NCBI GenBank assembly: GCA_009840575.1
Contig: VXNO01000115.1
Location: 1-49,221, forward strand
Origin: Chloroflexota bacterium
Lineage (GTDB): Bacteria; Chloroflexota; Anaerolineae; Aggregatilineales; Phototrophicaceae
Length of the DNA: 49,221 bases
Direction: 5' to 3'
In this document: positions 23,578 through 38,700 of the stretch, piece by piece
Layout of the letters: each line of letters starts with the position of its first letter
Numbering within the stretch: the first letter of the stretch is position 1
The notes under the pieces: generated by a model
What the model was told of the DNA's origin: nothing
Seen by the model: only the letters and a program-made list of their open reading frames with translations
Databases searched by the model: none
Program-made: the position numbers and the translations under genes

Positions 23578-24399
23578 ATGGCAGCAGCAAACACAAACGG
23601 ACAGCGCCGCATCCTCGAAGCGACGGGCATGACGAAGCGCTTCAGCGGCTTGGTGGCGGTGGATAACCTTGACTTTTATATCCCCGAAGGCGCGATCGCC
23701 AGCATCATCGGACCCAACGGCGCGGGCAAAACCACCTTCTTCAATTGCATCACCGGCTTTTACCAGATTGATGAGGGCGCGATCTTATTCGAAGGCGAGC
23801 GCATCAGCGGCAAGACGCCTGACCTGATCACCCGCGCTGGCATCTCGCGCACATTCCAAAATATCCGCCTCTTCAACAACATGTCGGCGATTGAGAATAT
23901 CATGGTCGGGCAGGAGCCGCACCTGCGCTCCAGTTGGATGGGCGCGATCCTCGGCTTGTCATCCACGCGCCGCGAAGATGACAACTGCGAAGCGCGCGCG
24001 CGGGAACTGCTGCATTTTGTCGGCTTGGAGGGCAAGGGCGATATGCTCTCCAAGAATCTGCCCTATGGCGACCAACGCCGCCTGGAAATTGCGCGGGCGC
24101 TGGGCAACCGTCCCAAGCTGGTCTTGCTGGATGAACCGACCGCCGGCATGAACCCCCGCGAAACGATCGAAACCACCGAATTCATCCTGCGCCTGCGCGA
24201 CGAATTGGGCATCACCGTGGTCTTGATTGAGCATGATATGCGCGTGGTGATGGAAATCTCTGAACATATCACCGTGCTGGATTATGGGCGCAAGATCGCC
24301 GAAGGCTTGCCAAGAGACATCCAGACCAACCCCAAAGTGATCGAAGCCTACCTCGGCAGCGGTGCCAGCCAAGCCAAGCCCGCCGAAGCAAACAACTAG
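23578..24399 (+). CDS. livG: Branched-chain amino-acid ABC transporter ATPase LivG
   Basis: 273 aa ABC ATPase. Walker A GPNGAGKTTFFN followed by CITGFYQIDEG, the LivG-specific ISRTFQNIRLF, signature LPYGDQRRLEIARALG, Walker B LVLLDEPTAGMNP and switch region VVLIEHDMRVVMEISEHI with LDYGRKIAEG. The NQR-type Q loop and the ISRTFQNIRLF motif separate LivG from LivF. It sits 15 nt after livM and 15 nt before livF. Confidence 0.94.
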   Translation: MAAANTNGQRRILEATGMTKRFSGLVAVDNLDFYIPEGAIASIIGPNGAGKTTFFNCITGFYQIDEGAILFEGERISGKTPDLITRAGISRTFQNIRLFNNMSAIENIMVGQEPHLRSSWMGAILGLSSTRREDDNCEARARELLHFVGLEGKGDMLSKNLPYGDQRRLEIARALGNRPKLVLLDEPTAGMNPRETIETTEFILRLRDELGITVVLIEHDMRVVMEISEHITVLDYGRKIAEGLPRDIQTNPKVIEAYLGSGASQAKPAEANN

Positions 24400-24414
24400 G
24401 AGAAAACCAGCCCC

Positions 24415-25125
24415 ATGGCGCTGCTGGAAGTCAAGGACATTCACACCTATTATGGCAATATCCACGCCCTGAAAGGCATCTCCTTCGAGGTCGATAGCGG
24501 TGAGATTATCGCTCTTATCGGCTCGAATGGCGCGGGCAAGACCACCACCCTGCGCACCATCTCCGGTTTAATGGCACCGCGGGAGGGCAGCATCATCTAC
24601 GGCGGACGCGAGATTTCAGCAATGCGCGCGGATTTGCTGGTGCTGCGCGGCATCTCCATGGTGCCGGAGGGTCGCGGCGTCTTCGCCAAGCTCACGGTCG
24701 AAGAAAATCTCGACATGGGCGCGTATATCCGCAGCGATGGCAGGGTCGCCGAAGACCTCAACAGCGGCTATGCGATGTTTCCGCGCTTAAAAGAACGGCG
24801 CAAACAATTCGCTGGCACGCTCAGCGGCGGCGAGCAGCAGATGCTGGCTATTGCCCGCGCCTTGATGTCCAAGCCCCGCCTGCTGCTGCTGGATGAGCCC
24901 TCGATGGGTTTAGCGCCGGTGCTGGTGGATGTCGTCTTTGAAGCCATCCAGCGCATCGCCAGCGAAGGCGTAACCATCCTGTTGGTGGAGCAAAACGCGC
25001 ACATGGCGCTGCAAATCGCCGACCGCGGCTATGTGCTGCAAAGTGGCGAAGTCGCTTTCAGCGATACAGCCGCCAGCCTGCAGCGCAATGAAATCGTGCA
25101 AAAAACCTACCTCGGCATCGACTAA
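24415..25125 (+). CDS. livF: Branched-chain amino-acid ABC transporter ATPase LivF
   Basis: 236 aa ABC ATPase, normal LivF length. DIHTYYGNIHALKGISFEV at the start, Walker A GSNGAGKTTTLRTISG, VPEGRGVFAKLTVEENLDMG (LivF hallmark), LSGGEQQMLAIARALM, LLLLDEPSMGLAP and VEQNAHMALQIADRGYVLQ. It forms the heterodimer with the LivG product under the LivH/LivM permeases. AGGAG before the ATG; the kinase gene follows after 2 nt. Confidence 0.94.
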   Translation: MALLEVKDIHTYYGNIHALKGISFEVDSGEIIALIGSNGAGKTTTLRTISGLMAPREGSIIYGGREISAMRADLLVLRGISMVPEGRGVFAKLTVEENLDMGAYIRSDGRVAEDLNSGYAMFPRLKERRKQFAGTLSGGEQQMLAIARALMSKPRLLLLDEPSMGLAPVLVDVVFEAIQRIASEGVTILLVEQNAHMALQIADRGYVLQSGEVAFSDTAASLQRNEIVQKTYLGID

Positions 25126-25127
25126 TC

Positions 25128-26270
25128 ATGCTGACCGCGACCAGCGACCCTGCCACCGAGCGGCGTTTGGCGGAACTGACGGCGGCGCAGATAACCGAAC
25201 TAGCGCGGCTGGCTGCTGACGATGCTTCGCTGGCTGCGGCTGCCTGGCGCTATGCAGCCGTGCAGGGCGGCTTTGGCGGCGCGATCGGCGGTACAGCGCT
25301 CTATCGCTTTTGGATCGACTGCGAAGCCAAACCGCCTGTTTCGTTGATTTTGAAAATCCTCTACTTGCGCCGCGGCGAAACAGCGACTTCGCCTTATTAT
25401 TGGAAGCGCGAATACGAACTTTACCGCGCCCGCCTGTTGGAAGACCTGCCCGCGCGCACCTTCATCGCGCCGAAGATCGTGCAACTGCGCGACTTTGGCG
25501 ACTCCTGCTGGATATGGATGGCGGATTATGCCGACCACAAAACAAGCTGGACATTTGACGATTATCGTGCCGTCGCTCGCCGGCTGGGCAGGATGAATGG
25601 CAGCATGGTCGACCGCGATTTGCCAGCCAGCGACTGGCTCGCGCAAAGTTGGCACAGCGCTATCGTGCCGGGGCTGGCGGATGCCTTTGCGGCGCTCCCA
25701 AATAGCCTGGAGCAGCCGCTGGCACGCATCACCCTGCCGCTGGACGCGCGAGACGAAATTATGGCGACCTGGCGCGACCGCGAGCTTTTCCGCGCGGCGC
25801 TTAGGCAGCTCCCGCAGACGCTCTGCCACAACGATGCCTTTCGGCGCAACATCCTGCACAGCGACGCAGGCGTCGTTCTGCTGGATTGGGCGCTGGCTGG
25901 ACGTGGCGGCTTGGGCGAAGAACTGGTCTCGCTGGTTGCGCTGGCGTTGTATTACAGCGGCTTCACGCAAGAATATGCCGCGCGGCTCGACCAGGCGGTC
26001 TTCCACGCCTATATCGAAGGCTTGCGCGAGGCGGGCTGGCAAGGCGATGCCAGGCTTGCGCGCATCGGCTACACCTGCGGCATGACTCTGCGCGGGCTGG
26101 CGGGCGTCAAGCAAGATATCAACCTGCTGATTGACCCCAGCCAGCACCAGGAACTACGGAATGTACATGAGCGCGACAGCGTAGAAGACATCGCCGCTTT
26201 CTTCGCCGAGGTGCGCCGCTTCCGCCTGGTCCGCATAGCGCGCGAGGCTCGGCGCTTGTTAGCCAGCTAG
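25128..26270 (+). CDS. APH-fold small-molecule phosphotransferase family protein
   Basis: 380 aa protein kinase-like (aminoglycoside phosphotransferase family) enzyme. Catalytic loop TLCHNDAFRRNIL (HxDxxxxN) and the metal-binding Asp in VVLLDWALAGRG are clear; SLILKILYLRRGE likely supplies the ATP-binding Lys and TSPYYWKREYELY the paired Glu. Tight coupling to livF (2-nt gap) suggests that it phosphorylates or acts on the imported compound, but no substrate is recognisable; antibiotic resistance is unlikely from context. The stop shares CTAG with the convergent EamA gene. Confidence 0.8.
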   Translation: MLTATSDPATERRLAELTAAQITELARLAADDASLAAAAWRYAAVQGGFGGAIGGTALYRFWIDCEAKPPVSLILKILYLRRGETATSPYYWKREYELYRARLLEDLPARTFIAPKIVQLRDFGDSCWIWMADYADHKTSWTFDDYRAVARRLGRMNGSMVDRDLPASDWLAQSWHSAIVPGLADAFAALPNSLEQPLARITLPLDARDEIMATWRDRELFRAALRQLPQTLCHNDAFRRNILHSDAGVVLLDWALAGRGGLGEELVSLVALALYYSGFTQEYAARLDQAVFHAYIEGLREAGWQGDARLARIGYTCGMTLRGLAGVKQDINLLIDPSQHQELRNVHERDSVEDIAAFFAEVRRFRLVRIAREARRLLAS

Positions 26271-27151
26271 CCGGCGCGCAAGGAAATCAGCACGCCAACC
26301 ACGATAAGCAAGCCGCCCAGCCACAGCGAGGCGCTCATCTGCTGCCCCAGCAACAGTCCCGCCAGCGCCGCGCCCGTGAAAGGCTGCGCGAAGAAAAACA
26401 GCGACGCCACGCTGGCGGGTACCAAGGCAAAGGCGCGATTCCACAACAGCAGCGCAAAAGCTGTGCAAACCAGCCCCAGATACAGCACGGCAGCCACGAT
26501 GCCCGCGTCCAGGGCGCCGAGCGGGTCTTGGGACAATTCCAACAAGCTGGCTGGCAGCGAAACCAGCAAGCCACCCAGCAGCGCAAAGACGGTTACGGTC
26601 AATGTGGGTTGCGGATAGCGCAAGGCAAGCAGCCGCACCAGCGCCGAATACAAGCCCCAGGTCAGCGCGGCGAAAGCCAGGAACAAGTCGCCCAGAAAAG
26701 TATCGGCAGCGAAGTCAGCGCTGGGGAAATCAAGAATCGCCAAGACGCCGGCCGTTGCCAGCACGATGGCAAAAAAGCGCCAGCCAGTCAGCCGCTCGCG
26801 CAGGATGATGATGGCAAATAGCACGACAAAGGCAGGCGATGCGCTGGTAACAAGCGCGCCATTGATTGCGTTGGACAGGTCTGTGCCTACAAATTGCGCG
26901 CCCAGGCTGATGCCAATGCCAACCACGCCAACCGCCAGCATACGCAGCAGGTTGGGCAAGTTGGGCTTGGCGAGCCCGTGCCGCCAGGCCAAGGGCAGCA
27001 AGACCAGCAAAGCCAAGACCAGCCGCAGGCTCAACAAGGTGAAAGGCGGCAGGACCAGCAGCGTTACATCCGAAACAACATACATGCTGCCCCAGAGGCT
27101 GGCAGCTGTGATGCCATAGATGCTGCCGCGCAGCAGCGCCGGATTGACCAT
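26267..27151 (-). CDS. EamA/DMT-superfamily transporter
   Basis: 294 aa with ten predicted helices in two EamA repeats: RGSIYGITAASLWGSMYVVS opens the first, and FLGDLFLAFAALTWGLYSAL the second; the first repeat ends with FVVLFAIIILRERLTGWRF and the second with AQPFTGAALAGLLLGQQ. Such exporters move amino acids or metabolites; substrate unknown. The ATG at 27151 has GGAG upstream; an in-frame GTG at 27190 would add 13 residues with no better signal. Convergent with the APH gene. Confidence 0.88.
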   Translation of the reverse strand: MVNPALLRGSIYGITAASLWGSMYVVSDVTLLVLPPFTLLSLRLVLALLVLLPLAWRHGLAKPNLPNLLRMLAVGVVGIGISLGAQFVGTDLSNAINGALVTSASPAFVVLFAIIILRERLTGWRFFAIVLATAGVLAILDFPSADFAADTFLGDLFLAFAALTWGLYSALVRLLALRYPQPTLTVTVFALLGGLLVSLPASLLELSQDPLGALDAGIVAAVLYLGLVCTAFALLLWNRAFALVPASVASLFFFAQPFTGAALAGLLLGQQMSASLWLGGLLIVVGVLISLRAG

Positions 27152-27281
27152 CGCCGTCGTAGCTCCAAGCAAGTCGTGAAAAACTATCACAGAAGTAATT
27201 AAAAGTAAGTCGTTAAACTTAATTCACCCCAGAGGCGCAGAAGTAGAATCAAGAAAGTAATGCGAAAATCCAGGAATGAAT

Positions 27282-27351
27282 GTAGGGGCGAGCCTTGGGT
27301 CGCCCGCCGTTTTCTGTGATGATTCTGGGCGAGGCGGTGACTCGCCCCTGC
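27282..27351. repeat. Paired GGGCGA/CTCGCCC hairpin repeats forming a larger inverted repeat
   Basis: Two copies of the GGGCGAG...CTCGCCCCTAC family face each other: one reversed (27282-27306, starting GTAGGGGCGAG) and one forward (27327-27351, ending CTCGCCCCTGC). Outer arms 27282-27292 and 27341-27351 pair with one mismatch. The forward copy has the loop of the menE copy in reverse-complement. Confidence 0.75.
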
Positions 27352-27397
27352 TTGGTTCTACTGAGCCTCATAGGAAAAACCTGGATTGGCGCGATAG

Positions 27398-27428
27398 TTG
27401 CAATTGATGCGCCGCCCAAGAGTATAAT
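27398..27428 (+). promoter_or_regulatory. Candidate promoter for the TIR/NACHT operon
   Basis: TTGCAA (27398-27403), 19-nt spacer, TATAAT (27423-27428), 37 nt before the GTG at 27465. The perfect -10 box is the stronger part. Confidence 0.5.
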
Positions 27429-27464
27429 TGGGCTGAGCAGAAACAATCACGGCGAAGGACAGCT

Positions 27465-30400
27465 GTGGCGACGGACGGAGCGATTTACCTCTCATACCAC
27501 AACAAGGACATCGACCGAGCCTTCCGGCTGGCGATGCTGCTGCTGCGCTGTTATCGGCGCGTGTGGCTGGACCGCTTTGAGGTTGCGCCCGGCGAAAACT
27601 GGCATGCGGGCATTCGCCAGGCTCGCGACGCGGCAGCCGGTGCCGTGGCGGTCGTCAGCGATTCGTATTTGCAGTCGCCGCTTTGCCAGGCTGAGTTCGC
27701 CGCTTTCACCGAGCGTGGCTTGCCCGTCACCGCGGTCATCGCGCGCGATTTTTCCACCGGCAACATCACCGATTATCAATTCACCGACTGGATCGACTTT
27801 CGCCGCTGGTTTAGCGACCCCCGCGAACAAAACATAGAAGAGCTGCTGAATCGCGTCCCGCAGGCGGGGGACATGCCCGAGCCTGGCCAGCGACTGGACT
27901 ACCTGCGCGGCTTCATCCACCAGCTTGAGCTGTCGCTTGCCAACATGCCGACAGCCTGGGCGGCGCTGCGCAATGCGGACGCGGCTGGCGGCAGCGACAT
28001 CCGACCGCGCAACGGGCAGTTTGGCTTGCTGCGCGATTGGGCATTCACAGGGCATAAATCTGGCGCGGAATTGCCCGTCAGCGACCTGGCGCAATGGGCG
28101 CAGACCGAGCCGCAATTCGTCCTGCGTGGCGCGCCCGGCAGCGGCAAGACGGTGTTTGCGCAGCTATTGGCGCTGGAACAAGCGCATGTCGCTTTGCGAG
28201 ATGAAGCCGCGCCCCTGCCCATCTGGCTCGACCTGGCGCTGTGGCGCGAAGACTTGGAAACGCTTGATGCTTTTGTGGAATCACAGTGGCAGTTGTTGAC
28301 CTATTGGCGGCATTGGCTGGAAGAGCGAGCCTCGCTGCTCCTGCTGGACAATTATAGCGAATTGCAGGCGCAGCGCCCTGAGCAAGCTCAAGCCGTCCGC
28401 GAGTGGATTGACGCCAGCCCGCGCCATCGCTTCATCGTGCTATCGCGCGGGTATGCAGGGGATGAGCCGAAGCTGCCGACCTTGGAAATCGGAGCAATCA
28501 CCACCGCGCTCGCGCAGAAGTTCGCCAGGCGGCATCTACCCGTCGGGCAGCAATACGACTTTCGCCAATTGCTGCGACAGAAATCCGAGCAGGTCGCAGC
28601 GCGGCAGGTGGATTATTTGTCGCTCGGCATTGAATTGCTGGCGGCTGACCGCGCCCTTGCCCACAGCCAATGGTCAAAAGACCCCAGCCCAGCGCTGGTC
28701 GCCTTGCGCTTGCAGCAAGAGCCTGACGCGGCGGGGGGCTTGGGCGCTCTGCAACTGCTGCGCGGATTGCAGAGCCTGGCTTGGTCAATGATGTTGGCGG
28801 AATCACACCGCTTTATCCCGCGCGCCGCTGCCGAGCGAGAGGCGAAAGACCCCCGCGTTGTGCCGGCGGCTGTGGCGCTGGGCTTCTTGGGCGACTACGG
28901 GGGCTGGCTCTGCTTCCAGCCCGAGGCGCTGCAATTTTATCTCGCCGCGGAGCCGCTAAAACATGATGGTTTGCTCAAGTTTATCAAAGCGCCTGAGTTC
29001 ACTGACGATGGCGAGTGGCTGCCACGCAAGTGGGACAAGCTGGCGCTGCTCATCATCACGGGCTTGGCGGAGGAATCACGCGAGCAAGCGCTGCTGCGCA
29101 TCTCAGCGGTCGACCCCTACCTGGCGATGATGGCTTTGCAAGGCGCAAAACCGATATCCACACCAATTCGTCAGGTATTGCTTGAGCGGCTGTTACAGCT
29201 ATGCGCCGAAAGGCCCGCAGCCCGGCGCGCCTTCCGCCAGGCGCTGGCAGGCCTCCCAGATGCCGACGCCACTGCCCAAGCGCTAATCGGGCAGTTGGGG
29301 CGCTACAATAGCGACACGCAGCTTTGGCTGTGGCAGGAGCTGCGCGCCCTGCCCCTGGAAATGCCGCTGGATTTCTTCAGTTTGCTAGCCGATGTCGACC
29401 GCGAAAATCCAGCAAATATGCTGAAGCAGTTGGATGCCCAGCCCTTGGCGCTTTCGGCTGCTTGGCTGGTCAAGCTATCCGTCCACCCGGAAGAAAAGCT
29501 GCGCCGCAATAGCATTTGGATGCTGGGCGAGTTGAAATACCTGCCCACGGCGATCCTGCTGCTCGATGATTTGCAAAACGGCGATGGCAGCGACCAATCG
29601 GAATTGCTGCCGGCGTTGATGAAGTTTGCTTATTCCGAGATATTGGCGCGCGTATTGCGCTGGGCGCAGCCGCAGCCAGGAAATACCGCCGCCGTGGTTC
29701 GCGCGCTGGCGCAGCAAAAACGCCTGGTGACGAGTCGCCTGCTGGCGATGGCGGATGTGCGCCTGCTGACTTTGACTGACGAGTTTTATACTGTGGTGGT
29801 CGAGCGCAACGAAACAGAAATCGCTATCGGCTTGGCGCAGGTCATCGGCGAGGCTGTTGCGCTCCCCGACGAAATCACCACAGCCATCTTGTCGCATCGG
29901 CAAGCGGAGGAACTGCGGCAAGAAATCGCCGCTGTCATCAAGCACCTGCCCAATCGAGATCAATATGCGCAGTTGGTCGCGGATATTGGCGCGGTGCTGC
30001 GCGACCCGCCAGATGCGACTGTGCTGGCTGGCAGCAAGCTGGAGGCGCTTGTTTTCGGACAATCGCCCTTTGTTAAAGAGACCGCTCAGGCTGCCGCGTC
30101 CGCCCCTGCGCTGCCAGCAAACCTGCGCAGGCAATTACAGCACGATGATTGGCAGCAGCGGTATCGCGCGCTCAACAGCCTGGTGGATTACCCCGCCGCG
30201 CAATCCTTGCCCGCCCTGCTGAGCGCAATTGATGACAGCGACCAAGGGGTGCGCCTGGCGGCTTATGAAGTGCTGGCGCGTTTTGCAGACGAAAGCGCCG
30301 CGCAGAAGCCGCTCATCGCTGCGCTTTCCGACCCGGACACCGCGACCGTCCGCGCCGTGACGGACTTGCTGAAAACAGCGCCCGACCTCGATTGTGAAGC

Positions 30401-31394
30401 GCTGCTCAATCTGCTGGAAAGCGCCAACCCGCCGACCGTCGCCGCCGCCATCGAGATAGTGGCAGAAAAAAAATACCCGGCCGCCCTGCCCGACCTGGAG
30501 CGACTGCTCGCTAGCCCGCTCACGCTCGCCGATGGCAGGGCGATCAGCCAGTTGGCGCGCGCTGCTATGAGCGAGATTGAAAGCGCCGCGGCTGAAGCAG
30601 CGCCCGCTCCCGGTGGCTCGGCAACGGCTGGTTTCACCGATAGTGAAAAAATCTCGCGGACTTTGCAGGTGCTGCGCGATGATGACTGGGGACGCACCCA
30701 GAAAGCCGCCAAGTTTTTGCGCCGCTTCGCCCGGCATCTGCGTGGCAATGAAGACAGCCAGACGCTGGATATGCTCTGCGAGGCGCTGGACGATGACAAC
30801 TGGAGCGTGCGCTGGGCGGTTGCCGAGGCGCTGGCAGTGCTGCGCAATCCCGCCGCTGGCGAGCATTTGCGCCGCCGACTGAATGACGAAAACTGGATCG
30901 TGCAGATCGCTGTCGTGCGCTCGCTGGCGGAGCTGCGGGTTGTCGCCAGCGCGAGCGAAATGGCGCGCCTGCTCAGCCATGAGAATGCCGCCCTGCGCGA
31001 AGCCACCGCCGAGTCGCTGGGCAAGCTGCGCCAGCCGCAGGTCATCCCGGCTTTGGGTGAAGTGATGCAAGGCGATAGAGATGAATTTGCGCGCTTCGCC
31101 GCTTTAAGAGCCATCCACCAGATCAATCCGCAGCAAGCCCGCCCCTGGTTGGAGCTGGCGCTGAGCGATGCCAGCCTGCCCATGTGGCATTTTGCCCTCC
31201 AGCAGTTGGTGCCCCAGATGACCGACAGCGACTTGCCCCTCTTGCAGAAAATGCTGGAGGATCAGCGCAAGCCCGAAGGCGAAGACGAAAGCCTGCATGA
31301 CCTGGCGGTGCGCGCGCTGCGGAAAATTGACAGCGCCGCCAGCCGCGCCCTGCTGGATGAACCGCCGCAGACCGCCGAGAGCGCCAGCGCATGA
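27465..31394 (+). CDS. TIR - STAND/NACHT-like NTPase - HEAT-repeat protein
   Basis: 1309 aa. Residues 1-125 are a TIR domain: GAIYLSYHNKDIDRAFRL, VWLDRFEVAPGENW (BB-loop region), VAVVSDSYLQSPLCQAEF with Glu77 at the position of the catalytic Glu of NAD-cleaving TIRs. Residues about 185-460 are a P-loop NTPase with Walker A GAPGSGKT (222-229) and Walker B-like LLLLDNYSEL (291-300), where Asn follows the Asp instead of the second acidic residue; FIVLSRGYAG is the sensor-1 strand. A long helical region follows, with HEAT-like repeats from about 880 (HDDWQQRYRALNSLVDYP, LDDDNWSVRWAVAEALAVL, NDENWIVQIAVVRSLAELR). This is NLR-like: effector, switch, sensor. Start is GTG with GAAGGA five bases upstream. 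It overlaps the next gene by ATGA. Confidence 0.85.
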   Translation: MATDGAIYLSYHNKDIDRAFRLAMLLLRCYRRVWLDRFEVAPGENWHAGIRQARDAAAGAVAVVSDSYLQSPLCQAEFAAFTERGLPVTAVIARDFSTGNITDYQFTDWIDFRRWFSDPREQNIEELLNRVPQAGDMPEPGQRLDYLRGFIHQLELSLANMPTAWAALRNADAAGGSDIRPRNGQFGLLRDWAFTGHKSGAELPVSDLAQWAQTEPQFVLRGAPGSGKTVFAQLLALEQAHVALRDEAAPLPIWLDLALWREDLETLDAFVESQWQLLTYWRHWLEERASLLLLDNYSELQAQRPEQAQAVREWIDASPRHRFIVLSRGYAGDEPKLPTLEIGAITTALAQKFARRHLPVGQQYDFRQLLRQKSEQVAARQVDYLSLGIELLAADRALAHSQWSKDPSPALVALRLQQEPDAAGGLGALQLLRGLQSLAWSMMLAESHRFIPRAAAEREAKDPRVVPAAVALGFLGDYGGWLCFQPEALQFYLAAEPLKHDGLLKFIKAPEFTDDGEWLPRKWDKLALLIITGLAEESREQALLRISAVDPYLAMMALQGAKPISTPIRQVLLERLLQLCAERPAARRAFRQALAGLPDADATAQALIGQLGRYNSDTQLWLWQELRALPLEMPLDFFSLLADVDRENPANMLKQLDAQPLALSAAWLVKLSVHPEEKLRRNSIWMLGELKYLPTAILLLDDLQNGDGSDQSELLPALMKFAYSEILARVLRWAQPQPGNTAAVVRALAQQKRLVTSRLLAMADVRLLTLTDEFYTVVVERNETEIAIGLAQVIGEAVALPDEITTAILSHRQAEELRQEIAAVIKHLPNRDQYAQLVADIGAVLRDPPDATVLAGSKLEALVFGQSPFVKETAQAAASAPALPANLRRQLQHDDWQQRYRALNSLVDYPAAQSLPALLSAIDDSDQGVRLAAYEVLARFADESAAQKPLIAALSDPDTATVRAVTDLLKTAPDLDCEALLNLLESANPPTVAAAIEIVAEKKYPAALPDLERLLASPLTLADGRAISQLARAAMSEIESAAAEAAPAPGGSATAGFTDSEKISRTLQVLRDDDWGRTQKAAKFLRRFARHLRGNEDSQTLDMLCEALDDDNWSVRWAVAEALAVLRNPAAGEHLRRRLNDENWIVQIAVVRSLAELRVVASASEMARLLSHENAALREATAESLGKLRQPQVIPALGEVMQGDRDEFARFAALRAIHQINPQQARPWLELALSDASLPMWHFALQQLVPQMTDSDLPLLQKMLEDQRKPEGEDESLHDLAVRALRKIDSAASRALLDEPPQTAESASA

Positions 31395-33025
31395 AGATTT
31401 TTGTCAGTTATGCGCGCGAAGACAAACCCTTCTGCATTCGCATCATCGAGACGTTGCACGCGCACGAAGTCTGGTATGACCAACGGCTCTACGCCGGGCA
31501 GGATTGGTGGAAAGAAATCCGCCGCCGCCTGGCTTGGTGTGAGGTCTTCGTCTTTCTGCTTTCACCGGAGTCGGTCGCTTCACGCAATTGCCTGCGCGAG
31601 CTGGCAATCGCCCGGCAGCTCAAGCGCGCCATCATCCCGGTGCTTATCGACAGCGCGACTGTGCTGCCCGAAGCCATGCGCGCCTGGCATTATGTGGATT
31701 TGTCCCAGGATTTGACAGCGCAGAATGTCTCGCGCCTGCTGTCGGCTGTGCTGATGGCGGAGCGAGCGCAACACGCCGCCACATCATCATCATCCGCGCC
31801 CAAATCACCAGCCAGCCAGCCCGACGCGACCAAGCCAGCGGCCTTGATTTCGGCGGCTGTGCAGGCGATGGAAGAAGAAAATTATCAATCGGCGGTTCGC
31901 TTGCTGCGCCAGGCAAATGCCAGCGGCTACCAATCGCGTTTTCTGCGCGTGGATGAGCTGCTGCGCTCGGCGCAAGCTGCCTTGTCGGAGCGGCAGCCGC
32001 AGCGAGAAGCGCAGCGCGAATACCAGCACATTGCCGCGCTATTCAATTTTGAAAGCACGCGCGGGATCGCCTGTGAGGCGCTGGCGGAGTTCCAAAAGGA
32101 ATTCGGCGATTATGACCCGCAGAACCTGCGCCGCCATTGCGCTGCTGAGATGCAGAACCAAACACCCGCGCCACTGCCACAGCCCGTCCCAGCGCCCAGC
32201 CAGCCGATAGCAAGCTCGCCAATCAAAGCGGCTGCTGTGACGATGCCGAGCGAACCGCCCGCTCCCCCGCCAGCCCGCGAATCGGTCGCTGCGTCCTTTT
32301 CTGTCAACGACTTCCTGCCTATGCTACAATGGTGCGATATCCCGCATGGCAATGTAACCATCAGCAGCATCGTCGGCGCGGATGAAGAATTCGGCGAGAT
32401 CACCGAGCAGGTAGACAATTTTGTGATGAGCAAGTACCCGGTGACCAACGCCCAATTCGCAATTTTTGTGCATGCCGAAGATGGCTATCGTAACCCGCGC
32501 TGGTGGGCTTTTTCTGAGTATGCCCAGCGCTGGTTCGCTGCCAACCGCCGCGCCGCCGAGCCGCGTTTTGCCGGCGAGACCTTGCCGCGAGAAAATGTCA
32601 ATTGGTACGAGGCGAAAGCTTTTGCCAACTGGCTGGGCGCGCAACTGCGCATGAAGGTGAACCTGCCGACGGTCGCGCAATGGCAGCGCGCCGCCAAAGG
32701 CGATGACGATCGTTATTTCCCCTGGGGAGATGACTATGACGAAGACCGCTGCAACACGGTCGAGACCGGCTTGAAGCAGACCACGTCCGTCGACCGCTAT
32801 CACAAAGGCGTCAGTCCCTATGGCGTCTATGATATGTCGGGCAATACCTGGGAGTGGACCTTGAACACGGCAGCCGCAGCCGAAGATGGGCGCGACTTGC
32901 GGCGGGCGGTGGCTGGTGGCAGCTATGTGAGCAGCTGCGACCGCGCCCAGACCTCCGTGCGCTATTATCTGGAGCCGCGCGTGCGTTATTCGTCCATCGG
33001 TATGCGCCTGGTGGCAACGACATGA
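31391..33025 (+). CDS. TIR - linker - FGE-sulfatase (SUMF1) domain protein
   Basis: 544 aa. TIR domain (1-115): MKIFVSYAREDKPFC, VWYDQRLYAGQDWW, FVFLLSPESVASRNCLREL with Glu70 as putative catalytic residue. A Ser/Pro-rich linker is followed by a helical region (about 148-250, ALISAAVQAMEEENYQSAV, TPR-like), a second Pro-rich linker, and an FGE domain (about 305-544): FVMSKYPVTNAQFAIFV, PRENVNWYEAKAFANWLG, LPTVAQWQRAAKG, YFPWGDDYD, DMSGNTWEWTL and AGGSYVSSC. Active FGE carries two cysteines just after GGSY; here the spacing and number do not match (one Cys), so this is probably a binding module, not a formylglycine enzyme. Coupled by ATGA overlaps to both neighbours. Confidence 0.85.
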   Translation: MKIFVSYAREDKPFCIRIIETLHAHEVWYDQRLYAGQDWWKEIRRRLAWCEVFVFLLSPESVASRNCLRELAIARQLKRAIIPVLIDSATVLPEAMRAWHYVDLSQDLTAQNVSRLLSAVLMAERAQHAATSSSSAPKSPASQPDATKPAALISAAVQAMEEENYQSAVRLLRQANASGYQSRFLRVDELLRSAQAALSERQPQREAQREYQHIAALFNFESTRGIACEALAEFQKEFGDYDPQNLRRHCAAEMQNQTPAPLPQPVPAPSQPIASSPIKAAAVTMPSEPPAPPPARESVAASFSVNDFLPMLQWCDIPHGNVTISSIVGADEEFGEITEQVDNFVMSKYPVTNAQFAIFVHAEDGYRNPRWWAFSEYAQRWFAANRRAAEPRFAGETLPRENVNWYEAKAFANWLGAQLRMKVNLPTVAQWQRAAKGDDDRYFPWGDDYDEDRCNTVETGLKQTTSVDRYHKGVSPYGVYDMSGNTWEWTLNTAAAAEDGRDLRRAVAGGSYVSSCDRAQTSVRYYLEPRVRYSSIGMRLVATT

Positions 33026-33564
33026 AAGCGCGCCGCGAAGACACTGACGACAGCCTGGCCAGCGAAGGAGGAGTCGTGGCATCCCCATACCGCCGTGACA
33101 TGCACATCGAGATCGACCAGCTTTCTGTGACCGGGCATGTCGTCTTCGCCGGGCGCGATGGCATGGTCAAGGTGCAGACCGGTGGCAATGTCGCGCAGAA
33201 CACGCACCAGTCCGTTCAAATCGGCGGGATCGAAACGACGCCGCAGGAAGTCCAACAAATGCTGGGGGAGATACGGCGCGTCGAAGAGACGATTAAGCGC
33301 GCGAGCCTGCTGCCCGAAAGCAAGGAAGCCGCCCAGCATGATTTGCAGACGGTCAAAGCGCAGCTGACGACGCCCAAGAAACCGAACCAGCGCATCCTCG
33401 TGCGGGCGGCAAAGTCGCTGCTGCGCTATTCGCCGGCTTTGACAGCCGCCGCCTTGACACTCTTTGACCAGCCGCTGGTCGGCGCGATCGTAGGCAGCGC
33501 GGGGGAAGTCGCAGCCAGCTTTCATGATCTTGTCAGCCGCCACAAAGCCTCGCAAGAATCCTAA
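33022..33564 (+). CDS. Small conflict-operon protein with GHVxFAGxD motif, putative adaptor
   Basis: 180 aa, no recognised family. Residues 27-70 look beta-rich and repetitive: MHIEIDQLSVTGHVVFAG, VKVQTGGNVAQNTHQSVQIGG. Residues 72-118 are helical and charged (TPQEVQQMLGEIRRVEETIK), and 138-168 form a Gly/Ala-rich moderately hydrophobic segment (YSPALTAAALTLFDQPLVG, AIVGSAGEVAASF). The nonamer GHVVFAGRD (38-46) reappears as GHVIFAGQD in the next gene. The VQIG tetrad recalls cores of amyloid-type signalling motifs that link NLRs to effectors, though this is speculative. The ATG at 33022 overlaps the previous stop (ATGA); an earlier in-frame start at 32854 would lie inside the FGE domain. Confidence 0.7.
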   Translation: MKARREDTDDSLASEGGVVASPYRRDMHIEIDQLSVTGHVVFAGRDGMVKVQTGGNVAQNTHQSVQIGGIETTPQEVQQMLGEIRRVEETIKRASLLPESKEAAQHDLQTVKAQLTTPKKPNQRILVRAAKSLLRYSPALTAAALTLFDQPLVGAIVGSAGEVAASFHDLVSRHKASQES

Positions 33565-33585
33565 GGGCGGATTGTCAACAGCCAC

Positions 33586-35985
33586 ATGAGCCGCCCGCCC
33601 CGCCAGAAACCAGCCCGCGCCCCTGCCACGCGCGCCATTTCCAGCCCGCCCGTCATCGGCTCGCCCGCTGCCTGGCGAGGCTTCGTGCAGAACAACTGGA
33701 GCCGCCTCAAGCAGCAAGCCGACCAGTCGTCGCTGCGATCGCCCTACCAGAAACTGGTCATGATGGTCTTCACGCCGGTCATGCCCAATCCGGATACCAA
33801 GCTGACCCTGCTGCGACGCTTGCTGCGCAAGGTTCGTTATTGCGCGCCCTTGAGCAAACGGCTGACGGAGATTTACCGCGACCGCAATTATGAGCGCAAC
33901 GCCGAAGAGCTGGCGCGGGATTGCCTCGCGCCGCAGCAGCTTTCCAACGATGAACTGGTCGGGCTGGATTGGCTGATTGTGGCGACTGGCGGCTTGGATG
34001 GCTCGGCTGCGCAGGGACAGCGGGCGATCGCTTTTGCGCGCAGCCTGCTCGAAGCCATGCGCGAACAGCGTGATTATCCATCGGCGGTGCGCGTGCAGGC
34101 GGGCAGCATCTCGGCAGGCGGGCATGTCATCTTCGCCGGGCAGGATGTCAATATCGTCGCCGAGCATTATCAAGGCAGCAAGGCGGCGCTGAAGAGCTAC
34201 CTGGCGGCGGTGCGCACGGAATGGAATATCCCCACCACCACCATTCATCCCGCCTCACAGCACCATAGCCCGGCCATGCTGCACCAGTTGTATACGCCAG
34301 TTGATATCTGGACGGACCAGCGCCAATTTCACAGCGTGGGCATCGAAGAGCTCAACGCGCGGCGTTACCAGGCGATCGAAAAAGACCTGGGTTATGTGCG
34401 CGAGTCGGTATTCGAGGTGGTGGCATCGCACCCGCGCATCGTCATCACTGGGGCGGCCGGCACCGGCAAGAGCTCGCTGTGCCGCTTCATTGTTACCGCG
34501 CTGGCTTATGCCTGCGACCCGCGCGCTGAGAAACAAGACGGCGTCAAGGGGCTGGAGATGTTGGGTCCCGCCTGGATTCATGGACCGCTCTTGCCTATTT
34601 ATGTCAGCCTGCGCGACTTCGCCAACAGTGGCGATTTGTTCCCGCGCGCGCTGCAAGATGCCTCCGCCGAGCAACTCTTGAGCTACATCATGCGCGCCAC
34701 CGGCAACCTGGCAAAGCACCTGGAAGCCTATCTGACGCAGACCGACGCGGCGCAGGGCAGCTTGCTGGCGCTGGATGGCTTGGACGAGGTTTATGCCGCT
34801 AAAGACCGCATCATCCTGCAGCGCATTATTGAGAATTGGGCAGACCGCTTCCCCACCTGCCGCATCATCGTAACCAGCCGCACCTATGCCTACCGCCAGG
34901 ACGCGCGCTGGCGGCTTTCGGGGCGCTTCGCATCCGCCGAGCTAGCGCCATTTTCCTGGCAGCAGGTCAAAACCTATATTGAACGGTGGTATGCCAATGT
35001 CGCCGAGTCGCGCCCGGGCGTCTTGGGCGGGCGGGCTGTCGCGCAGAAGCAAGCGGCGCTGATGGCGAAGGATCTATACAAAACCATCCGCGAGACAGGG
35101 TCGCTTATCCCGCTGGCGCGGCAGCCACTGATGCTGGCGCTGCTGACCTTGATCCACGAAGATTACAAGCAACTGCCCGACAAACGCGCCGAGCTCTACG
35201 AACAGACTGTCGAGCTGCTCGACCGCTGGAATATCCCCTCGCCCGATGACAAGCTGCACGAAAAGCTGGCAAACATCAACCTGGATCGCATGCGGGCGGC
35301 GCTGAAGCTGATTGCCTTCGAGCTGCATTCCGAACAGCAGAGCTACCAACGCTACCCGACCATCATCGAGCGGGCGCGGCTGCTGGACAAGCTGCTCGAG
35401 CAGCAATCGCAGGGCGGCGGGCTGGGCGCGGGCATCGAAGATGTGCTGGAATACCTGGCGACTCGCAATGGCATCCTGGTCGCCGATGCGCCTAACTTGT
35501 ACCGCTTCCCACATTTGACGATCCAAGAATACCTGGCAGCCAGCGCGCTGCTGGAGTTCTATGATGAATGTCGGATGCCGGCCGGTTTATCGCCACAGAG
35601 CGCGGACGGCTGGACATTCCCGGAGAATGTGGTCGCGCTGCTGCGGCATGATTATGCGCGCTGGCGAAATGTAACGCTCTTCGCTGGCGCTATCATCGCG
35701 GCTGGCAAATGGCAAGATATGCGTTGGCAACTGATTGACGAGCTGCTGCCGCAAGCCATGCGTAGCGCGCCGCCTGTGCAGAGCCTGCATTGCATCAGCG
35801 TGGCGGCGGAGATATGGGGGGAAAGCTGGTTAAAATCCCGCACGCGCAGCCAGTTGGTCATCGAGGCGCATCTGTTGCGCTGCCTGCGGCATATTCACAA
35901 TGACGAGCGCATCGACGCGCCCGAACGCGCCAACAACAGCGCCATTCTCAATCGCTTGCTGCGCAGCCAGAAGGCGCGCGCATGA
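33586..35985 (+). CDS. NACHT-domain NTPase with GHVxFAGxD motif
   Basis: 799 aa. The N-terminal 165 residues are helical and unrecognised (WRGFVQNNWSRLKQQA, SPYQKLVMMVFTPVMPNPD). Residues 168-195 carry a beta-type motif, VRVQAGSISAGGHVIFAGQD. NACHT: Walker A GAAGTGKSS (289-297), LLPIYVSLRDFANSGD, Walker B LLALDGLDEV (393-402) with the tiny/acidic pattern typical of NACHT, CRIIVTSRTYAYR as sensor, and RFPHLTIQEYLAASALLEFY in the winged-helix part. C-terminal 150 residues are helical, perhaps a sensor. It is separated from the adaptor gene by 21 nt and is the last conserved member. No effector domain is fused, so it would act through partners, perhaps the TIR proteins. Confidence 0.87.
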   Translation: MSRPPRQKPARAPATRAISSPPVIGSPAAWRGFVQNNWSRLKQQADQSSLRSPYQKLVMMVFTPVMPNPDTKLTLLRRLLRKVRYCAPLSKRLTEIYRDRNYERNAEELARDCLAPQQLSNDELVGLDWLIVATGGLDGSAAQGQRAIAFARSLLEAMREQRDYPSAVRVQAGSISAGGHVIFAGQDVNIVAEHYQGSKAALKSYLAAVRTEWNIPTTTIHPASQHHSPAMLHQLYTPVDIWTDQRQFHSVGIEELNARRYQAIEKDLGYVRESVFEVVASHPRIVITGAAGTGKSSLCRFIVTALAYACDPRAEKQDGVKGLEMLGPAWIHGPLLPIYVSLRDFANSGDLFPRALQDASAEQLLSYIMRATGNLAKHLEAYLTQTDAAQGSLLALDGLDEVYAAKDRIILQRIIENWADRFPTCRIIVTSRTYAYRQDARWRLSGRFASAELAPFSWQQVKTYIERWYANVAESRPGVLGGRAVAQKQAALMAKDLYKTIRETGSLIPLARQPLMLALLTLIHEDYKQLPDKRAELYEQTVELLDRWNIPSPDDKLHEKLANINLDRMRAALKLIAFELHSEQQSYQRYPTIIERARLLDKLLEQQSQGGGLGAGIEDVLEYLATRNGILVADAPNLYRFPHLTIQEYLAASALLEFYDECRMPAGLSPQSADGWTFPENVVALLRHDYARWRNVTLFAGAIIAAGKWQDMRWQLIDELLPQAMRSAPPVQSLHCISVAAEIWGESWLKSRTRSQLVIEAHLLRCLRHIHNDERIDAPERANNSAILNRLLRSQKARA

Positions 35986-36010
35986 GCCAGACAAAGGGCA
36001 GGATAATCAA

Positions 36011-37207
36011 ATGGCAATTCACATCGGTACGGCATTGCGCATATTCAGCGGCATTCTAGCGCTGCTGCTCTGCCTGCCTGCATTTGGGCAAGGCGCGGAG
36101 GCCATCATCAGCCGCGATACTCCGCCCGACCCGGCGGCAATCCAACTTAGGGCGGTGGCAACTGGCTTTCATCGCCCGATTTATGCGACCCATGCCGGCG
36201 ATGGCAGTGGGCGGTTCTTCGTGCTGGAGCAGAGCGGCAAGATATGGATCCTGGAAGATGGCGCGCGGACAACTGTGCCATTCCTGGATGTCTCGGCGCT
36301 GATTAGCCCCAGCGCGCTCAGCCAACGTTATAGCGAGCAGGGCTTGCTGGGCTTGGCTTTTCATCCCGAGTATGCCAGCAACGGCACTTTCTTTATCTAT
36401 TACACCGACCACGGTGGCGGCACTGTCGTCGCGCGTTACCAGGTCATGCCCCAGCAGCCCTACCTCGCCGACCCGGGCAGCGGGCAAATCCTCTTCAGCC
36501 TCAACCAGCCCTACGCCAACCACAATGGCGGGCACATTGACTTTGGACCTGATGGCTATTTGTATATTGCCCTGGGCGATGGCGGCTCTGCCAACGATCC
36601 ACTAGGCGCGGGGCAAAATCGGGGGATGCTGCTAGGCACGCTCTTGCGGCTGGATGTCGATAGCGCATTTCCCTATGCCATCCCGGCGGATAATCCCTTC
36701 GTGGACGACGCGGCGGCGCGGGATGAAATCTGGGCTTATGGCTTGAGGAATGTCTGGCGATTCAGCTTTGACCGCGCGACCGGCGATATCTACCTGGCGG
36801 ATGTCGGGCAGAACCAATGGGAAGAGGTCAATTTTCAGCCTGCCGAGAGCCGCGGCGGCGAGAATTATGGCTGGAATGTCTACGAAGCCAATACGATATT
36901 CGCCGGTGGCAGCGCGCCCAATCATGTTGCGCCTTTCTTCGCCTACCGACATGCGTTGGGCTGCTCGGTTACGGGCGGCTATGTCTATCGCGGCAGCGCC
37001 ATTCCCGAATTGCAAGCCGCCTATCTCTTCGGCGATTATTGCACCGGGCGCATCTGGGCAGCCTGGCGCGACAGCAGCTTGACCTGGCAGACGGTTGAGC
37101 TGATGAAGACGAATATGGCTATCAGCAGCTTTGGCGAGGACGAGACCGGCGAAGTCTATGTCATTGATTACGTCGGCGCTGTGTATCGCTTTGAGCCGCC
37201 CGCTTAG
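36011..37207 (+). CDS. PQQ-dependent sugar dehydrogenase-like beta-propeller (GSDH family)
   Basis: 398 aa. Signal peptide about residues 1-28 (RIFSGILALLLCLPAFGQG). Beta-propeller motifs: GLLGLAFHPEYASNGTFFIY, NHNGGHIDFGPDGYLYIALG, EIWAYGLRNVWRFSFDRATG, YLADVGQNQWEEVNF and GENYGWNVYEA. It belongs to the glucose/sorbosone dehydrogenase family; PQQ use is inferred and many family members have unproven substrates. The ATG at 36011 is chosen because it begins a signal peptide; an upstream in-frame start at 35900 lies inside the NACHT gene. It follows the NACHT stop by 25 nt but is unlikely to be functionally linked. Confidence 0.88.
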   Translation: MAIHIGTALRIFSGILALLLCLPAFGQGAEAIISRDTPPDPAAIQLRAVATGFHRPIYATHAGDGSGRFFVLEQSGKIWILEDGARTTVPFLDVSALISPSALSQRYSEQGLLGLAFHPEYASNGTFFIYYTDHGGGTVVARYQVMPQQPYLADPGSGQILFSLNQPYANHNGGHIDFGPDGYLYIALGDGGSANDPLGAGQNRGMLLGTLLRLDVDSAFPYAIPADNPFVDDAAARDEIWAYGLRNVWRFSFDRATGDIYLADVGQNQWEEVNFQPAESRGGENYGWNVYEANTIFAGGSAPNHVAPFFAYRHALGCSVTGGYVYRGSAIPELQAAYLFGDYCTGRIWAAWRDSSLTWQTVELMKTNMAISSFGEDETGEVYVIDYVGAVYRFEPPA

Positions 37208-38580
37208 TTCATCTGCTGGGTTTCAGTCGGCGCGGTGATGCCGGCGCGGGTGCGCTTGTATTGGGCGATGAGCGTCTTTATCTGCAATTCCAGCGGGTGG
37301 TAGCGCTTCATGATTTGCTTGCCTTCGGTCTGCAATTGCAGCATGCGCGTTTCAAGCTGGCGCAGTTGTGATTCCAGCTTGCCGCTGCGGTTCTTCCAGT
37401 CGATGTAAGCCAGCGGCACGAGCAAAATGCAGAATGCGCCCAAGCCGTACATAATCGCCGCGTAGTCGGCCTCGCCCATATAGTCGAAATAAAAACCGAC
37501 CGCCCCGCTGGCTGCCACCAGCATGATGTGCAGGAACATGCGCCGGAAAAAAGCGCCGCGTTTTTCGCGCTTTGCCTGCTTTTTCAGCAATTTATCGCGC
37601 TGCTGCCGTTGGCTTTCCAGCTCGGCGCGGATGGCATCAACGCGCTCTCGCAGTGGTTGCGCCTCGGCGATGAAACCGTCCAGCCGCTTCTTTATCAAGC
37701 GCGCTGCTTCCCAGCCGTCCAACATGCGGTTGTAATGCACTTCCAGCGCCTTGATTTGCAAGTCGAGCGGTTGGTAGCTTTGTCGCTGCTGCATGCCCTG
37801 CGCGCGCGCCTGCTGGATTTGCCGTTCCAGTTTGCGCTGTTGGGACAGTTTGCGGGTGCGCGGGTTTCTCCAGTTGAGGATAGCAATGGGGATCATAATC
37901 GCGCAGGCGCCGCACAAGACCCAGGCGACTGTGCTGAAGTCACGGTCGGCATGCCACATTTGCCAGCCGATTAAGCCGCTCGCCACGCCAGCCAGGACCA
38001 GCAAGGCGATTTGCAGGCGGATGGTGGCGGGCTGTTGGCGGCGGTCGATCTTGGCTTGGCGTTTCTCGTGCTCGGCGGTCAGCGCTTCCAGCTCGCTGCG
38101 AACGCCGCTCAACTGCTCACGGGCTGGCTGGCTTTGCTCACGCAGGGCATCCAGCCGCGCCTTGAATTGCTGGATGCGCCCCCATTCGTCAAGCTCGCTC
38201 TGCCCGCCGATGAACCAATCGCCGCTGGCTTCGTCGCCGAAGATATAGCGCCCGAAATCAAAGCTATAGGGGACAGGCTTGCCGGTGCTCAGGCTGCGTT
38301 CGAGGTCGCCGACTTCTTCGACCAGTTGTTCGTGCAGCAGCAGCAGCAGGCTGTAGGGCGCTGTGGCGCGGCGGAGGGCTTCGGGCGAAAGAGCGCCGTT
38401 GATCTCGGCGGCTTGGTCGCGCTGCAAGCTCAATTCTCCGCGCAGCCTGCCCAATTCCTGGCGGGCGCGTCTGATGCCGGCGGCGCGGTCACGCGGGTCG
38501 ATATGCGGCAAAAACAAGCGCGTTATGCCGATGGCATGCAAGTCATCAAGGTAATCCTGGGGGCTGGGCAGGTTGTTCAT
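37204..38580 (-). CDS. Coiled-coil membrane protein with internal duplication (458 aa)
   Basis: Not assigned to a known family. The N-terminal third is soluble (residues 1-135, SYSxDFGRYIFGDEAS region), followed by a coiled coil and two copies of a module of about 130 residues: helical hairpin in the membrane, then basic coiled coil ending in a YxPLxLQIKxL sequence. Copy 1: helices at about 188-207 and 218-237 then YQPLDLQIKALEVHYNRM. Copy 2: helices at about 350-370 and 378-396 then YHPLELQIKTLIAQYKRT. The layout suggests a peripheral or scaffold protein spanning the membrane four times. Its stop overlaps that of the convergent dehydrogenase. Confidence 0.75.
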   Translation of the reverse strand: MNNLPSPQDYLDDLHAIGITRLFLPHIDPRDRAAGIRRARQELGRLRGELSLQRDQAAEINGALSPEALRRATAPYSLLLLLHEQLVEEVGDLERSLSTGKPVPYSFDFGRYIFGDEASGDWFIGGQSELDEWGRIQQFKARLDALREQSQPAREQLSGVRSELEALTAEHEKRQAKIDRRQQPATIRLQIALLVLAGVASGLIGWQMWHADRDFSTVAWVLCGACAIMIPIAILNWRNPRTRKLSQQRKLERQIQQARAQGMQQRQSYQPLDLQIKALEVHYNRMLDGWEAARLIKKRLDGFIAEAQPLRERVDAIRAELESQRQQRDKLLKKQAKREKRGAFFRRMFLHIMLVAASGAVGFYFDYMGEADYAAIMYGLGAFCILLVPLAYIDWKNRSGKLESQLRQLETRMLQLQTEGKQIMKRYHPLELQIKTLIAQYKRTRAGITAPTETQQMN

Positions 38581-38700
38581 ATCGAACAGTGAAAATCGCT
38601 TTGGCGCAGAAAAACCGGCGAATATGCCGCATATAGATTATAGCATACGCAAGCGCAGGGGATACTTTGTGGCGCGGCGCAATCCGTCAAATAGTTTTTA

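Follow-up and report, generated by a model that had tools for sequence, protein, structure and literature searches.

A four-gene operon of TIR, FGE-fold and NACHT proteins conserved throughout a genus of Chloroflexota

To characterize a candidate conflict system, we analyzed a 49,221-nt stretch of contig VXNO01000115.1 from a Chloroflexota bacterium (this whole stretch is called the window below), which contains an operon of four intact open reading frames (ORFs), genes A, B, C and D, all on the plus strand. The ORF check reproduced the four genes and the spacing reported in an earlier note on this DNA: A and B overlap by 4 nt at 31391-31394, B and C overlap by 4 nt at 33022-33025, and C and D are separated by 21 nt. 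The TIR, NACHT and FGE (formylglycine-generating enzyme) domains named in that note were also recovered by Pfam, in A (TIR_2, E 4e-15; NACHT, E 1e-7; HEAT_2, E 7e-37), B (TIR_2, E 8e-23; FGE-sulfatase, E 6e-38) and D (NACHT, E 8e-13), and the operon structure was confirmed. The genes and their features are as follows.

27465..31394, plus strand: gene A, 1309 aa, GTG start; TIR, STAND-like NTPase and HEAT repeats (ORF and Pfam)
27483..27848, plus strand: TIR domain of A; C74 and E77 in 35/35 orthologues having the region (Pfam, alignment)
28119..28412, plus strand: NACHT-like NTPase core of A; P-loop Lys in 28/35 (Pfam, alignment)
30213..31157, plus strand: HEAT repeats of A; the part retained in the HEAT-only A of G045, G105 and G132 (Pfam)
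31391..33025, plus strand: gene B, 544 aa; TIR, middle region and FGE-fold (ORF and Pfam)
31397..31738, plus strand: TIR domain of B; S64, C67 and E70 in 36/36 aligned sequences (Pfam, alignment)
32330..33013, plus strand: FGE/C-type-lectin-fold domain of B, lacking the catalytic cysteines (Pfam, alignment)
33022..33564, plus strand: gene C, 180 aa; putative adaptor (ORF and profile)
33106..33186, plus strand: conserved GHVVFAGRDG...TGG segment of C, similar to a segment of D (alignment)
33241..33558, plus strand: predicted helical part of C, residues 74-179 (AlphaFold2)
33586..35985, plus strand: gene D, 799 aa; NLR-type NACHT NTPase (ORF and Pfam)
33664..34056, plus strand: N-terminal helical domain of D, residues 27-157, with no Pfam match
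34057..34161, plus strand: segment of D matched by the C profile, SISAGGHVIFAGQDVNI (profile match)
34402..34995, plus strand: NACHT NTPase of D; P-loop GKS and LDGLDE in 36/36 (Pfam, alignment)

The genus set comprised 34 genomes, namely the window's own genome (G000) and 33 congeners. A, B, C and D are adjacent, with order and strand kept, in 33/33 congeners; because of this constancy the operon is more than a chance arrangement, and the proposal that the four genes form one linked unit is upheld. The 4-nt A/B overlap is kept in 32/33 congeners, the exception being G033 with a gap of 9. Only the window and its four closest relatives share the B/C overlap and the 21-nt spacing of C and D, a comparison that depends on start codons set by rule in the congener genes. 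Genes for a glucose/sorbosone dehydrogenase (GSDH) and a coiled-coil membrane-like protein (CCTM) lie downstream of the quartet in 32/33 congeners (not G033), at times beyond an intervening stretch. An EamA gene lies 5' of A in 28/33 congeners; three loci begin at a contig end, and L038 and G033 are without EamA. Gene C of G004 (locus L062) is split over two overlapping frames, by either a true frameshift or an assembly error. Among 101 relatives, C was found in 36, namely all 34 genus genomes, G034 and G045, and the C profile matched 38 of the 154 genomes of the order, the extra ones being G105 and G132. The D profile matched 54/98 family genomes at E <= 1e-20; the 38 genomes with C reach at least 627 bits and the next genome 155 bits. 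In samples of the class (396 genomes) and of the phylum (400 genomes), for which few candidates were scored per genome, C matches were found in 24/396 genomes (12 in the family and 12 distant, E 5e-13 to 2e-5) and in 1/400, the window's own genome.

The quartet also shares the history of its surroundings. Among the 24 genomes carrying all ten genes compared, the number of supported splits conflicting with the flank tree was zero for A, B and D, one for C, and four for GSDH, itself a flank gene. Median pairwise identity was 0.89 for the ABC ATPase gene, 0.83 for D, 0.73 for C, 0.70 for CCTM, 0.68 for B, 0.66 for both EamA and GSDH, 0.63 for the gene at 38667, 0.57 for the APH-family gene and 0.53 for A (28-33 genomes per gene, G033, G034 and G045 excluded and matches below 80% query coverage dropped); D thus ranks second of the ten genes. 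The median ratio of nonsynonymous to synonymous substitution rates (dN/dS), calculated for the five closest genomes (ten pairs per gene, six for the gene at 38667), was lowest of all in D (0.074), followed by ABC (0.097), CCTM (0.135), B (0.159), APH (0.200), GSDH (0.204), EamA (0.210), A (0.221), C (0.228) and the gene at 38667 (0.280), the value of A being close to those of its neighbours.

Bacterial NLRs and TIRs are usually treated as mobile, patchy anti-phage weapons. The quartet is not patchy in the genus, unlike the two defence markers tested there: Cas1 was found in 4/34 genomes, and the HsdR-type SWI2_SNF2 domain, a domain of type-I restriction enzymes, in 14/34. A reading of the operon as a typical conflict system is therefore not supported within the genus: besides this lack of patchiness, the gene kinds and their order are constant, the history agrees with that of the flanking genes, and D has the lowest dN/dS and the second-highest identity of the ten genes.

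In TIR NADases the catalytic Glu lies in an SxxCxxE segment, and the Glu of this segment is conserved in both TIR domains. The conserved Glu residues pointed out before were confirmed for A (35/35 with the region) and B (36/36 aligned). In A, which has 1309 positions, this Glu is one of 56 that are identical in 35 or more of 36 sequences. In B, it is present in 37/38 genomes with C/D (the 36 aligned and G105), as well as in 30/30 loci that have A and lack C/D, where the TIR is covered. The P-loop Lys of A is missing in 7/35 orthologues of the C/D set and the NTPase motifs of D are kept in 36/36, so that the two switches proposed for the operon were too generous a count. The FGE module proposed for B stands as a fold but not as a formylglycine-generating enzyme, as its catalytic cysteines are absent. 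Position 514 is Ser in 36/36 sequences, and position 519 is Ala in 35 and Ser in one; these positions, mapped by eye, correspond to the active-site cysteine pair of such enzymes as placed in SUMF1. None of 40 further B homologues has Cys at position 514 (two gapped), and two have it at position 519. The relatives of known structure found by sequence include a Treponema variable protein as well as enzymes. Given the Ser and Ala/Ser at the cysteine sites and these solved relatives, the FGE domain of B is most likely a conserved binding fold. Mean identity to the window is 0.68-0.85 per 50-aa block over residues 301-544, which include the FGE region, and B varies most over residues 251-300.

D has both characteristics of NLR-type NACHT NTPases, the NTPase fold itself and the Walker A and B motifs. 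Structure comparison of D by VIA-align covered the region outside residues 27-157, and a search of solved chains by sequence with the D profile gave a single match, RecD, over 39 residues only. Phage records searched with D gave no match; 83 plasmid records gave one, all below 60% identity and none covering 80%. C has only weak coiled-coil matches in Pfam, below the cut-offs. AlphaFold2 predicted most of its residues 70-160 as helical (block means 89-97, 64 at the end), with values below 50 for the N-terminal 60 residues. The local alignment score between C and D was equalled in 2/500 shuffles, which is suggestive of a related segment in the two proteins, weak as the resemblance is. A protein search with C, in which 7996 candidates were scored, returned 162 proteins at E <= 0.001, and the 120 best of the 162 are without a Pfam domain. 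The 12 distant C-like regions of the class sample occur in three CHAT proteins, two kinase proteins, one 504-aa frame and six frames of 155-267 aa. The CHAT proteins of L207, L213 and L215 end C-terminally in the C-like domain (the next gene in L207 encodes TPR repeats), as do the tandem-kinase proteins of L217 and L218, which have a sub-threshold EAD7 match; three of the regions in short frames adjoin proteins with weak TPR matches. The fusion of C-like regions to CHAT and kinase proteins fits a role of C as an effector-linking adaptor. In addition, the tandem-kinase loci (L217:8992-17383 and L218:8824-11442) possibly represent another undescribed system: the tandem-kinase protein of L217 lies beside an 829-aa protein with no Pfam match and one that joins NB-ARC to HYDIN-type Ig domains.

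Comparison of loci across the order divides the operon into two modules. B-like matches at E <= 1e-60 were found in 90/98 family genomes and in 30/396 genomes of the class sample, all from the same order. C/D orthologues are absent from 60 of the 98 family genomes; 38 of these contributed a single B locus apiece, and two further loci, from another family of the order, brought the set without C/D to 40. In 31/40 of them B is immediately preceded by an A homologue; two of the 31 (L239 and L240) belong to another family. The first batch gave 20/20 and the second 11/20 (eight without A and one at a contig end), several loci of the second batch being weaker B matches and the G060 locus not being its best match. 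C+D, on the other hand, are always accompanied by B together with A or its HEAT part (38/38 genomes). The refutation proposed in the earlier note, that the homologues would lie mostly apart, thus fails for C+D, while A+B do occur without C/D. Because A and B are adjacent without C/D in 31/40 loci, we conclude that A+B is the older pair, and C+D a later addition or a module lost elsewhere.

Outside the genus, C is convergent to the other genes in G045 and on the opposite strand in G105 and G132, and B and D of G105 are truncated by contig ends. A consists of HEAT repeats only in G105 and G132, where the next gene is 417 and 471 nt away, too close to leave room for the missing part, and apparently also in G045, where it lies near a contig end; these genes were identified as A from their position and a profile match, HEAT repeats being widely alike. 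An ancestral HEAT-only form of A was considered and dropped, since A+B loci with full-length A exist. Across the order, A varies, with HEAT-only, TIR-HEAT and degenerate TIR/NTPase forms, and C+D are present in some genomes and absent from others; a scan of a few A homologues revealed no new effector domain. A receiver-domain gene (L204:3632-4030; Response_reg, E 1.7e-9) adjoins C in G105, and in G132 a gene between C and D (L203:8388-8837) has a receiver match just under the Pfam cut-off (E 2.6e-6, 28 of 30.2 bits). A receiver-domain gene is a possible fifth component of the operon.

As the earlier note had supposed, no described system of this exact composition was found: neither A+B nor A-B-C-D is named in the literature searched, PADLOC or NCBIfam, the two databases giving only partial matches (TIR, HEAT, P-loop and FGE parts, others being under the cut-off). 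The domains and their co-occurrence are already known from predicted conflict systems (PMC7159879, PMC8195603 and PMC10907252). The composition of the operon appears to be new, and its evolutionary mode is unusual. Conflict systems are described as having high architectural variability, repeated effector displacement in a preserved context and molecules of which parts are highly variable in sequence (PMC7159879); by comparison, the gene kinds and order of the operon are fixed in 34/34 genus genomes, and it is across the order that the architecture of A varies and C+D come and go. The STAND NTPase-FGS systems (Kaur et al. 2021, PMC8195603) resemble the operon in their STAND/NACHT NTPase, FGE-fold (FGS) domain and TIR effectors, and a lectin-like sensor role has been proposed there for FGS. 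In those systems, however, the NTPase itself carries the FGS as a fusion, frequently as two or more copies, whereas here it is on the TIR protein B, the NACHT is separate (D), and each genome has one conserved copy of C and D. They are also often tied to diversity-generating retroelements (DGRs), whereas the window's genome has no RVT_1 match; such matches were found in 7/34 genus genomes, in frames of 853-993 aa, in a search that did not extend to template repeats. DGR-diversified CLec/FGE sensors (PMC10907252) likewise combine an FGE-fold with NACHT and TIR, but the FGE domain of the operon is conserved and not hypervariable. The bacterial NACHT (bNACHT) and Avs anti-phage NLRs, named in the same paper, share the NLR-type NACHT NTPase fold; they differ from the operon, in which D has no recognized effector domain, the effector-like TIRs are on separate proteins, and the distribution is core and vertical. 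TIR defence systems such as Thoeris (ThsB TIR) have a TIR with a catalytic-type Glu and give weak PADLOC/NCBIfam matches, but in place of a ThsA-type partner the operon has NACHT and HEAT proteins.

We read the quartet as a settled chromosomal, vertically inherited NLR-TIR module that senses a conserved cue, rather than as an exchangeable defence cassette, with a probability of about one half. This reading builds on direct observation of the gene set, its two-module anatomy, residue conservation, vertical inheritance and constraint; from these we infer complex formation, an order of events, NADase activity, a cue and an outcome. A+B would be a TIR effector pair, in which B couples a TIR with a catalytic-type Glu to a non-catalytic FGE (lectin-fold) binding domain and A contributes the other TIR, carried on an NTPase-HEAT scaffold. 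C+D would be an added control module, with D as a NACHT switch of strict NTPase motifs and C as a small adaptor. A conserved cue would bind the FGE domain and/or D; D would then assemble in an ATP-dependent manner, C would relay, and the TIRs of B and A would be brought together to hydrolyse NAD+ or make an NAD-derived signal, resulting in arrest or death.

Several observations weigh against this reading. Of the ten genes, A evolves fastest (rate 1.81, with the CCTM gene as reference), as would suit a sensor undergoing some diversification. The quartet of G033 is at a different site, and full function seems not to be retained in every genome: B of G132 is without the TIR Glu, and the operon of G023 (L061) looks eroded, with A cut to 952 aa and the TIR motifs of B altered, its Glu being retained. 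Where A+B occur without C/D, the Glu of A is present in 25/30 loci and its P-loop Lys in 25/29; as both residues are missing from some of these loci, A decays regardless of whether C/D are present. The resemblance between C and D is weak (C profile on D, E 6e-4 to 1e-3), and the structure search with C gave no solved-structure match at E <= 0.001. Moreover, a conserved TIR Glu is no proof of NADase activity, as some TIR adaptors keep the Glu and are nevertheless inactive.

The strongest alternative is an ordinary anti-phage abortive-infection system that became fixed in the lineage, in which D or the FGE domain would recognize a phage feature that does not vary; we consider it possible, at odds well short of even. 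The parts list (the parts being known from anti-phage or predicted conflict systems; PMC7159879, PMC8195603, PMC10907252), the speed of A and its varied architecture across the order count for such an arms-race system, and the 88 TIR and 17 NACHT matches of the divergent congener G033 indicate a defence-like background in the lineage. Constancy and constraint within the genus count against it: presence in 34/34 genomes, a settled site in 32/33 congeners, the same gene kinds and the lowest dN/dS in D, to which are added the patchiness of Cas1 and SWI2_SNF2 in the same genus and the outcome of the phage and plasmid searches with D. A module of physiological or developmental signalling, its TIR, HEAT and FGE parts serving as interaction scaffolds without consumption of NAD+, would agree with a core, vertical and constrained operon, with a non-catalytic FGE domain and with the receiver-domain genes of G105 and, just under the cut-off, G132; it seems unlikely in view of the near-invariant catalytic-type Glu of A and the Glu of B in 37/38 genomes. 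A symbiosis-specific module aimed at an animal host is very improbable: many congeners are presumably sponge-associated, judging by naming conventions of metagenome-assembled genomes (MAGs), and sponges have NLRs, but the quartet or its remains also occur in UBA6055 and the MAGs LaPlata-7m, L.E.CH.71 and MAG-262, and A+B are spread across the order.

Returning to the settled NLR-TIR module, we tentatively suggest a further step, which is doubtful as a whole: the operon may be a lineage-wide core pathway in which a conserved NACHT switch, a TIR enzyme and a lectin-fold sensor respond to a constant cue and control regulated cell death or dormancy, C+D having been added to the older A+B, after which the older NTPase could decay. 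If true, the pathway would correspond, in bacteria, to a hard-wired inflammasome. With a NACHT-TIR operon that is passed on vertically and whose NACHT gene has the lowest dN/dS of its segment, one can test whether NLR-TIR pathways serve bacteria, as they serve animals and plants, in core machinery for regulated death or stress; the natural series of A+B, A+B+C+D and HEAT-only A with C+D does the same for the role of the NACHT switch.

The surroundings of the operon in the window are of ordinary kinds. On the 5' side lie genes for branched-chain amino-acid transport permeases, an ABC ATPase (named by inspection), an APH-family protein and the EamA protein, and on the 3' side GSDH, CCTM, a phosphomannose isomerase and a Clp ATPase; none of 14 neighbour proteins scanned is a mobile-element or defence protein by name. 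A tRNA search of the window and an Rfam scan of 24000-38600 gave no match. The promoter scan returned 6 sites, compared with a mean of 2.3 in shuffled sequence, and none lay 5' of gene A on the plus strand; for terminators the figures were 14 and 9.7, and neither scan was informative.

Finally, TIR_2 matches number 4-11 and NACHT matches 0-3 in 33 genus genomes, as against 88 and 17 in G033, a striking gap in TIR/NLR repertoire inside one genus; G019 falls below the NACHT count threshold though D is present. The two NACHT matches of the window's genome are D and A. A tandem pair of TIR genes (frames of ~150-205 and 250-280 aa; G000:C126:985-2060) recurs in several congeners, among the matches listed, and is perhaps a second conserved TIR locus.
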